From contig WTCE01000030.1 in the NCBI GenBank assembly GCA_013138735.1, forward strand, positions 62,001-126,000: 64,000 nucleotides of DNA, written 5' to 3'. Below the pieces are notes generated by a model. That model was given only the letters and a program-made list of their open reading frames with translations, was not told where the DNA came from and ran no database searches. This stretch comes from Crocinitomix sp. Its GTDB lineage: Bacteria; Bacteroidota; Bacteroidia; Flavobacteriales_D; Crocinitomicaceae. Position 1 is the first letter of the stretch. Each line of letters begins with the position of its first letter. Both the position numbers and the translations under genes were made by a program. This document shows positions 22,385-23,922 of this stretch, one piece after another.

Positions 22385-23806
22385 TTATGCTTGTATAAAC
22401 AAACTCTTCATTGTAACAATCTTTCTAACTATTGCATTACTGTATTGGTTTTGCTTTACTCCCCATGTTGTAATAACTGCCGTTTTGAGTCCTTTTTTGG
22501 ATTCTTTAGACTCCCTAAATTGAGTTTCTCGATTCCTAAGTTTTTTTAGATCGGAAGCATCAAGTTCGTATTCATCACCGTAATACTTTATTTCGCACAA
22601 ATTTACCGTCTTATCATCTCGATCAACGACCAAATCAACTTGTGCTTTGCTACTGCTCCATGTATAATTTTTTGACTCTATTTGATCACACTCCAGTCCT
22701 TTCTTGATTTCCTTAATATGTTTCAAACATATTGTTTCAAACGCATAGCCGCACCATGTTCTATATTCTTGTTTCTGGTATACTGATGTCCATTTCGACC
22801 CCCGATATGGGATCATAAATTGAAGGTGAAACAAACAAAATTCATCATAAATTCTATACAGGGTCGTTTTCGACTTCTCTCTGTAAGAATCATACTTTAG
22901 TACAAAGCCTGATAGTATAAGTTCTTCCAAAGATTTTGAAAATTGTCCCCCAGTTGAAATGTTGGTTTTCTTTAATAAATCAGTCCTAGTTAGCCCCTTT
23001 TTTCGAGCTGTTGCCAAGACGTGAATTATCTGCTCATGATATGAATTCTGTCCATAGAGTGAGTTAAATATATCTGCATACTCATTCTCTAGAAAACCAC
23101 CATTTGAGAAACACATACGATCGATAGCTTGAACTGATGATTCTCCAGTATTAACATGTTCCAAATATTCAGCGACTCCACCAAAAGCCATATACATCTT
23201 TAATAAGTCATATTGCTCAACTGGATTGTCTTTATACTTAAAGAACGCCTCTGTTTCGTGTAATGTAAAAGGTTGGAGTTCGATTCTTTGTGTGATTCTA
23301 TTATGCAGACCTCCTTTATTTCTAATGATCTTTTTCATCATGTAAGAGGCAGCTGATCCGCATACCACTACTACTAAATCTGTTCTTGTGGTGCAGTAGT
23401 CATTCCAGAAATTTTCGAAGGCTGGTAAAAACCGAGACTTAGGTGAGTCTGTCCAAGGGAATTCATCAATGAAAATCACCTTTTTTGTTTTAGTGACTTT
23501 TATGGTTTTCAAATACTTCTTTAAGAGTGTAAACGCTGCCAACCATGAGACGGGCTTTTCATTTTCATAGCGGTCGTTTGTGAATTCATTTAACTTAAGC
23601 ATGAAATTCTCAATTTGATCTGCTCTATTTCCAACTTCTAGCCCGGTGAAACTAAATTCAATCTTATTACCAAAGAACTCTCTAATAAGATACGTTTTGC
23701 CAATTCTTCTTCGTCCGTAAACAGCTATTAGCTCTGATCTTCGACTACTTAAGGTATTCGTTAAAACTTTAAGCTCATTTACCCGTCCTACGACTCTTTT
23801 TGACAT
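22385..23806 (-). CDS. ATPase fused to PD-(D/E)xK nuclease-like domain (ATPase_2 + DUF234)
   Basis: A 473-residue protein starting V-G-R-V-N-E-L, the hallmark of the archaeal/bacterial 'ATPase_2' group of STAND-like AAA+ proteins. Walker A is G31-R-R-R-I-G-K-T38, Walker B is I-F-I-D114-E115-F-P-W, and a sensor segment V-C-G-S-A-A-S-Y-M follows at 148-156. A winged-helix-like linker lies near 255-320. The C-terminal DUF234-type domain has E357, D391 (Q-V-D-L-V) and E405-I-K407, the spacing expected of a PD-(D/E)xK nuclease. Family members are widespread but poorly characterised. The gene stands alone, and its promoter region carries two copies of a 37-bp palindrome (23828-23922). Confidence 0.85.
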   Translation of the reverse strand: MSKRVVGRVNELKVLTNTLSSRRSELIAVYGRRRIGKTYLIREFFGNKIEFSFTGLEVGNRADQIENFMLKLNEFTNDRYENEKPVSWLAAFTLLKKYLKTIKVTKTKKVIFIDEFPWTDSPKSRFLPAFENFWNDYCTTRTDLVVVVCGSAASYMMKKIIRNKGGLHNRITQRIELQPFTLHETEAFFKYKDNPVEQYDLLKMYMAFGGVAEYLEHVNTGESSVQAIDRMCFSNGGFLENEYADIFNSLYGQNSYHEQIIHVLATARKKGLTRTDLLKKTNISTGGQFSKSLEELILSGFVLKYDSYREKSKTTLYRIYDEFCLFHLQFMIPYRGSKWTSVYQKQEYRTWCGYAFETICLKHIKEIKKGLECDQIESKNYTWSSSKAQVDLVVDRDDKTVNLCEIKYYGDEYELDASDLKKLRNRETQFRESKESKKGLKTAVITTWGVKQNQYSNAIVRKIVTMKSLFIQA

Positions 23807-23827
23807 AGTAATTATTTATTTTATAAC

Positions 23828-23922
23828 GCAGCCAAATATATGATTTTTTATTCAATTTGGCTGCACTATATATTTGATACATAAAGCAGCCAAATGTATA
23901 ATTTTTCGTCCGATTTGGCTGC
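23828..23922. promoter_or_regulatory. Two tandem 37-bp palindromes over the ATPase-nuclease promoter
   Basis: GCAGCCAAAT-N17-ATTTGGCTGC occurs at 23828-23864 and again at 23886-23922, 58 bases apart, with perfect 10-base arms, equal 17-base A/T-rich spacers and the same ACTATA following each on the plus strand. Read toward the gene (minus strand), each copy contains a Bacteroidota -7 box: TATATTTG (23840-23833) and TACATTTG (23898-23891). The opposite arm begins 20 bases upstream of each box, where a -33 element would lie. This layout fits autoregulatory operators. The rest of the 360-base gap 23807-24166 shows no gene. Confidence 0.75.

Follow-up and report, generated by a model that had tools for sequence, protein, structure and literature searches.

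PDC-S27, an ATPase fused to a PD-(D/E)xK nuclease, has been described as a common, unvalidated candidate antiphage system, one of a kind for which validation is pending for most candidates (PMC12988326). According to the accessible text of that survey, 3503 occurrences are archaeal and 4562 are bacterial, and the system appears to be bacterial in origin with a later spread to Archaea (PMC12988326); this conflicts with the archaeal origin that a second paper, again in its accessible text, cites from a recent study (PMC13356809). Two other systems are relevant here because of their promoters. The AbiEi-type protein Rv2827c binds two sets of inverted repeats at the promoter of its own operon (PMC7319586), and RptR represses the promoter of a restriction-modification defense island via repeated short palindromic sites (PMC12255303), as far as the available portions of these papers describe them. 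Here, we analyze a PDC-S27 gene of Crocinitomix sp. (assembly GCA_013138735.1) that lies in a stretch of 64,000 nucleotides (contig WTCE01000030.1, positions 62,001 to 126,000; hereafter the window, whose numbering is used for all coordinates) and is preceded by two palindromes with identical arms. We consider it probable that the PDC-S27 protein binds this paired operator over its own promoter, most likely repressing itself, and that reader and operator change together. Across the family, comparative sequence analysis suggests that each PDC-S27 protein most likely recognizes and controls its own gene. The locus would thus add a co-evolving operator to a candidate family already on record, and our searches of the available literature on PDC-S27, DUF234 ATPases and related systems found no description of these palindromes.

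The window gene has the same architecture as PDC-S27 as described, and the accessible text of that description mentions no operator, palindrome or DNA-reading domain (PMC12988326). AbiEi-type operons resemble PDC-S27 in being linked to defense and in carrying inverted repeats on their own promoter, which in AbiEi are bound by the operon's own product (PMC7319586) and in PDC-S27 are placed on the promoter by consensus only. They differ in that a separate antitoxin binds DNA, whereas in PDC-S27 the ATPase, the probable DNA reader and the nuclease are one protein. Similarly, in the available text, RptR represses a defense promoter through repeated palindromes, as we propose for PDC-S27 (PMC12255303). 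However, RptR is a small repressor encoded apart from the defense proteins, and its 6-bp site is conserved, in contrast to the PDC-S27 site, which diverges with each protein.

The window gene (positions 22385 to 23806 on the minus strand, as are all coding features given below) encodes a protein of 473 amino acids with an AAA+/STAND-type ATPase, a winged helix and a PD-(D/E)xK nuclease domain, as predicted from the open reading frame, Pfam, PADLOC and a structural model. The PADLOC profile for PDC-S27 (PDLC04984) matches residues 4-470, the full length of the protein (E = 1.9e-172), and was matched by all 57 of the 57 sequences scanned (alignment A2). The ATPase_2 domain (PF01637; residues 7-218, positions 23153 to 23788), with a P-loop from G31 to K37 and a Walker B motif at D114-E115, scores 66.7 bits against a cut-off of 33.2 (E = 3.3e-18). 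In an alignment of the window protein with 75 relatives, G31, R32-R34, G36, K37 and D114-E115 of the ATPase are invariant in all 76 sequences, as are E357, Q389, D391, E405 and K407 of the nuclease domain (approximately residues 346-465, positions 22412 to 22771), which form E357, Q389-x-D391 and E405-x-K407 and whose assignment also draws on Pfam and a C-terminal model. A preliminary description of the window, made from sequence alone, had called the protein a fusion of an ATPase_2 domain to a DUF234 nuclease domain. The fusion stands, with E357, D391, E405 and K407 present and invariant, but the C terminus, which by sequence is DUF234-like, scores 22.4 bits against the DUF234 (PF03008) gathering cut-off of 22.5, 0.1 bit short of membership. 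The window protein thus has the predicted PDC-S27 architecture with its catalytic residues intact; it is presumably an active nuclease and may serve in defense, held in stand-by. No NCBIfam match was found up to an E-value of 0.1, and the only sequence relatives in the PDB were weak TnsC matches (E = 0.006-0.011).

Upstream of this gene, GCAGCCAAAT-N17-ATTTGGCTGC occurs twice, 58 bp apart from start to start. The proximal palindrome (positions 23828 to 23864) has 10-bp arms and a 17-bp center, and the distal palindrome (positions 23886 to 23922) has identical arms. This pair of palindromes with perfect 10-base arms, reported in the preliminary description, is not expected by chance (0.00 such palindromes in 100 dinucleotide shuffles of the window). 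When 10-25 bases were allowed between the arms, the assembly of this genome (6.84 Mb in 188 contigs, 97.5% complete) contained just these two copies of the arm pair, and a looser search with AGCCAAA-N18-21-TTTGGCT added one site, which follows the stop codon of a paralog at a distance of approximately 90 bases. TAnnTTTG is the -7 box of Bacteroidota promoters. A match on the coding strand lies in the right arm of each palindrome, as previously noted: TATATTTG in the proximal one (positions 23833 to 23840, minus strand) and TACATTTG in the distal one (positions 23891 to 23898, minus strand). The other arm had been placed exactly 20 bases further upstream, at the -33 element. By our count its distance upstream from the -7 box is 15-24 bases, and no -33 element is evident in it, there being no TTTG on the coding strand. 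The genome encodes three more full-length copies, 49, 41 and 38% identical to the window protein, each with upstream palindromes that have other arms (CTATACTCCGCCAAA, TGGAAATAA/TTATTTCCA and GTCTGAAACA). A fifth copy is a C-terminal fragment near a contig end (L005 273-617, G000:C79; query residues 354-468, 47% identical).

The same layout recurs in relatives, which we gathered from named metagenome-assembled genomes, whole genomes, and plasmid or phage records to a final set of 132 complete genes with less than 97% identity, the window gene included. An upstream palindrome with an arm of at least 8 bp was found at 116 of the 132 loci versus 114 of 1320 shuffles (8.6%), arms of at least 10 bp at 89 loci versus 17 shuffles, and two palindromes sharing a 7-mer arm at 70 loci versus none of the 1320 shuffles. 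In an earlier set, arms of at least 8 bp were present in 92/106 upstream regions, compared to 199/2120 shuffles and 108/1552 control windows (other 200-bp windows from the same loci), and two non-overlapping palindromes with a common 7-mer arm were present in 48/106, compared to 0/2120 and 1/1552. Arms at 93 of the 132 loci contain a CCAAA/TTTGG core with at most one mismatch, and 19 or 20 bases separate the cores in 148 of 155 palindrome calls, for which spacings of 17-21 were allowed and some palindromes were called at two spacings. The bases beside the core vary (CTG, CAC, CGA, CGT, CCA, AAC, GAA, GGA and more). Among the 39 loci without the core, 32 still have an arm of 8 bp or longer, and the sequences there include TTCCGCGTA, TTAAAGTAGT, ATAAATCCA and TTTCAGAC. 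Distances between successive palindromes (n = 21, among 45 representatives) are 52-54 bp (six cases), 58 bp (one, the window), 64-68 bp (eight) and 76-78 bp (six), and these clusters step by approximately 11-12 bp, near one helical turn. Some loci (L066, L110, L111 and L116) carry regular alternating arrays with a pitch of approximately 26-27 bp. Arms that differ between genomes while the layout is kept are what the preliminary description had predicted. It had also named two observations that would speak against it, homologs without upstream palindromes and the same palindrome at unrelated genes; most relatives have palindromes, and the window palindrome lies at no unrelated gene of its genome.

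The identity of the variable bases appears to be tied to the protein. We propose that each arm serves as a half-site in three parts: TTTGG as the inner core, a variable block that sets specificity (n1-n4), and an outer part rich in A and T. Bases n1 and n2 would be read by residues 286 and 288, which lie at the start of the recognition helix (region 286-299, positions 22910 to 22951) of a winged helix-turn-helix domain, which spans approximately residues 256-319 (positions 22850 to 23041) in an AlphaFold2 model, with boundaries from predicted secondary structure. Base n3 would perhaps be read by residue 168, a weaker link, in a loop of the ATPase domain (residues 164-170, KGGLHNR, positions 23297 to 23317). 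In a first scan of every protein column against the arm bases (88 sequences), residues 286 and 288 and the loop 164-169 were near the top. Because ranks in that scan (for example, A227, M206 and G166) partly reflect shared ancestry, we added a test on a tree. Stricter arm calls (90 sequences) were used for the identity-band, tree and resolution tests, and the residue/base tables use the first calls; the arm of L010 is CAAC in the first calls and CGA in the stricter ones. Residue 288 ranked first for n2 both among sequence pairs with less than 50% identity (P of the same base, 0.66 vs 0.21; 418 columns) and among pairs with more than 50% identity (0.96 vs 0.19; 388 columns). A tree of 178 branches was then built with the candidate segments left out. 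Of the 13 changes of n2 on it, 9 coincided with a branch on which residue 288 also changes (21 changes of residue 288; p = 4e-7), which placed this residue first among 467 columns. The association persisted with length-weighted placement (p = 0.001) and kept first place in every one of 30 random resolutions by parsimony (median 8/13, p = 4.5e-6). Residue 286 leads for n1 (2 of 3 changes) and kept rank 1 over the 30 resolutions, and residue 168 leads for n3 (3 of 14 changes). The pairings resemble a code: T288 occurs with n2 = T in 22/22 sequences, Q288 with T in 6/6, Y288 with G in 11/11, and D288 with G in 9/10, the tenth being a miscall corrected by the stricter calls, and S168-K169 occurs with n2 = A and with n3 = C in 13/13 each. 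These tallies include many close relatives and are not independent counts; the tree test carries the weight. Because the arm bases track recognition-helix residues on the tree, physical binding is strongly indicated, and the covariation with residues 286, 288 and 168 lends indirect support to the earlier suggestion that the protein binds the palindromes.

The position of the palindromes suggests what binding would do. A TA stands at the position that TAnnTTTG requires in 35/44 right and 8/44 left arms of the proximal palindrome (deduplicated representatives), and in 6/21 right and 3/21 left distal arms. Because the TA is placed for the -7 box in so many proximal right arms, the promoter very probably lies under the gene-near palindrome, as judged by consensus, which agrees with the proposal in the preliminary description that the palindromes cover it. 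The two inverted half-sites of each palindrome would be bound by a dimer or larger assembly, and protein on the proximal palindrome would cover the -7 box and repress its own gene. Self-repression would be the simplest outcome because a bound proximal palindrome covers the -7 box. Of the three roles that the preliminary description had offered, self-repression is thus likely, and nicking of the protein's own site and marking where the gene can move stay hypothetical. Repression would keep a potentially toxic nuclease at a low level, in stand-by, and protein and operator would drift together to give matched pairs. The palindromes, their conserved geometry, the covariation, the -7 box match and the intact catalytic residues are read directly in the sequences; from them we infer physical binding, an oligomeric assembly and repression.

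Predicted structures are consistent with a DNA-reading ATPase. In the full-length AlphaFold2 model (mean pLDDT 94.4), an AAA+ domain is joined to a winged helix, whose recognition helix is formed by residues 287-299, and to a C-terminal nuclease-like fold. The ATPase and winged helix together match the archaeal proteins PABY2304 (2qen; Z 21.1, rmsd 3.2, 311 residues aligned) and SSO1545 (2fna; Z 20.1, rmsd 3.2, 301 aligned). Next come STAND switches, CED-4 and plant NLRs among them, and Orc1/Cdc6. The Orc1/Cdc6-type matches (Z approximately 13-15) share the AAA+ plus winged-helix fold (1w5t_A, Z 14.7, rmsd 4.2, 305 aligned) and include the DNA-bound entries 2qby_B (Z 13.6, rmsd 9.1, 288 aligned) and 2v1u (Z 13.5, rmsd 7.2, 287 aligned). 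Orc1/Cdc6 marks replication origins and contacts DNA with both its ATPase and winged-helix parts. Unlike the window protein, the archaeal pair and Orc1/Cdc6 offer a match that stops before the nuclease domain, and we know of no Orc1/Cdc6 protein fused to a nuclease. Modeled alone (pLDDT 94.0), the C-terminal domain matches the PD-(D/E)xK-type endonuclease 2vld (Z 9.1, rmsd 6.3, 116 aligned), EndoMS (5gke; Z 8.6, rmsd 4.0, 114 aligned) and AF1548 (1y88; Z 8.0, rmsd 2.7, 106 aligned), and other folds remain compatible with the VIA-align structural rows. Foldseek gave no match for this domain at E ≤ 0.001 (best 1.6e-3).

Several observations weigh against a self-binding, self-repressing PDC-S27 protein. 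At sixteen of the 132 loci, no arm reaches 8 bp; some of these still have shorter or imperfect versions, and some (for example, L125 and L132) have no clear palindrome. The 58-bp spacing in the window lies outside the main clusters. Among pairs with less than 45% identity, residue 288 falls to seventh for n2, and R288 is ambiguous, occurring with three bases (A 9, C 6, G 2). The link between residue 286 and n1 rests on few events, as n1 changed only three times on the tree, the link between residue 168 and n3 has a median rank of 4 (range 1-30) over the 30 resolutions, and further columns have low p on the tree (for example, Y256 and E66 for n2). Paralogs within a genome share a 7-mer arm in 7 of 31 pairs compared to an expected 7.95, with the common CCAAA core inflating observed and expected counts alike. 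Finally, distant members deviate: only 2 of 11 more distant plasmid members clearly exceed shuffles, and the six haloarchaeal ones among them lack this palindrome type. The Rhodothermus member has ATTATACTC dyads (0/100 shuffles as good) and the Desulfosarcina member has TTTTGTGTC-N21-GACACAAAA (3/100 shuffles as good), and the upstream palindromes of the Vescimonas member and two Fusobacteriota members are not above shuffles. As a separate matter, selection for arms that differ among paralogs, which would insulate them from one another, shows no sign in the 7 of 31 pairs observed against 7.95 expected, and we set this idea aside.

Of the alternative explanations, the one that survives best, though we regard it as unlikely, is that a small mobile cassette has the palindromes as its ends or address; the nuclease would act at them, and gene and palindromes would move or be copied as a unit. 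Consistent with this, at 23 of 107 loci a palindrome with the same arm lies in the 500 bases that follow the stop codon, all 23 having one centered 19-60 bases after the stop, compared to only 5-8 of 107 when each locus is searched with arms from a different, randomly chosen locus (five draws). Elsewhere in the fetched stretches, same-arm palindromes occur at only two loci (L033 and L055). The 3' copy is identical to an upstream copy, center included, in L002 and L030, and nearly so in L044 and L096. In 7 of 13 locus pairs, which were picked by hand so that this fraction is not a rate, the palindromes and gene are the main shared block: the block extends from -165 to +1 in the window and L022, -118 to +52 in L012/L099, -153 to +15 in L144/L162 and -136 to +51 in L076/L092, and L024/L031, L030/L033 and L038/L072 also share essentially the palindromes and gene. 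On the other hand, 84 of the 107 loci, the window among them, have no 3' copy, the shared block extends further in 6 of the 13 pairs (for example, L028/L034, L078/L083 and L008/L091), and L038/L072 share another, separate upstream block. Moreover, selection on the gene and operator alone would leave such blocks too.

One site in genus g56 bears on this question. Among 30 loci, the gene is present in three (L144, L161 and L163), the flanks are joined without it in 25, and two could not be judged. By eye, no target duplication is visible at this site, and 23 of the 25 empty sites have no relic, both of which speak against a cassette; the site shows gain and loss of the gene, not an active mechanism. 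L233 carries a relic of one intact and one decayed palindrome with no gene and was the only empty site found by a search with AGCCAAA/TTTGGCT, and L227 carries one decayed palindrome and the first codons of the gene. A search for empty sites corresponding to L012 within its genus gave no informative hit. A different palindromic repeat, like GGTTCGTG-GGGA-CACGAACC, recurs in intergenic DNA of genus g56, and both of its halves are present in 8 of the 25 empty sites (L230, L234, L239, L241, L244, L245, L248 and L250).

It is very unlikely that another host regulator, rather than the PDC-S27 protein, binds the palindromes. A palindrome over a promoter does not by itself name its binder, but here the arm bases follow the protein's own recognition-helix residues on the tree, the arms differ among all four full-length copies that one genome carries, and the arm pair of the window is found nowhere else in the assembly. 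About as improbable is a protein that binds its operator but activates its gene, or a bound site that acts mainly as a sensor and releases the nuclease during phage infection. The listing of the family as a candidate antiphage system would suit such a role, as would the fold matches, which include STAND switches and 8bob (negative regulation of the maltose system); however, the overlap with the -7 box fits repression better. Least probable of all are RNA hairpins in the 5' leader, as an attenuator or a type III toxin-antitoxin-like RNA: long arms around a center of 17-20 bases could fold, but arm mismatches show no excess of G-U pairs (G-T 61, A-C 65, other 84, counts that include 16 double calls at spacing 0 or 1, in contrast to the deduplicated promoter counts and spacings), both palindromes repeat the same arm, the arms co-vary with the winged helix, and much of the proximal copy, given its overlap with the -7 box, would be untranscribed from that promoter.

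If PDC-S27 proteins do bind their own operators, the family offers dozens of natural pairs of protein and operator in which a few positions form a readable code, and binding, specificity change and self-control could be tested by single swaps. The operator would also offer a way to search for the trigger of the nuclease. We speculate, as a doubtful extension, that PDC-S27 proteins are self-addressed nucleases, each with a private palindromic address at its promoter and, at about one-fifth of loci, also behind the stop codon. The protein would be a dormant ATPase switch sitting on this address. If the address lost its occupant or turned up elsewhere, for example, upon phage takeover or entry of the cassette into a new genome, the nuclease would be freed or directed. 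Address and reader would be rewritten together as the cassette spreads.

Some observations concern more distant genes. The haloarchaeal loci L132, L258, L260, L261, L263 and L264 have a common TAAGTCATTATCG-N3-TAATCATTA shortly before the start, which is perhaps the own operator of these PDC-S27-like genes. Among viral sequences, no relative was confirmed in IMG/VR contigs. A record of Wolbachia phage WO contains a PDC-S27 homolog beside head-tail genes (L126 2001-3464), annotated as an archaeal ATPase with a C-terminal DUF234 domain. Upstream palindromes also occur in a related candidate family, the DUF4143/AAA_14 ATPases (PDC-S01): of 30 loci fetched, 25 were usable, and arms of at least 12 bp were present in 6 of these 25 upstream regions versus 1 of 1000 shuffles. 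Their geometry differs from that of PDC-S27, with two same-arm palindromes in only 1 of 25. Genes of this family often have upstream palindromes with arms of 17-21 bp and short centers, as at L172, L187, L189 and L190.

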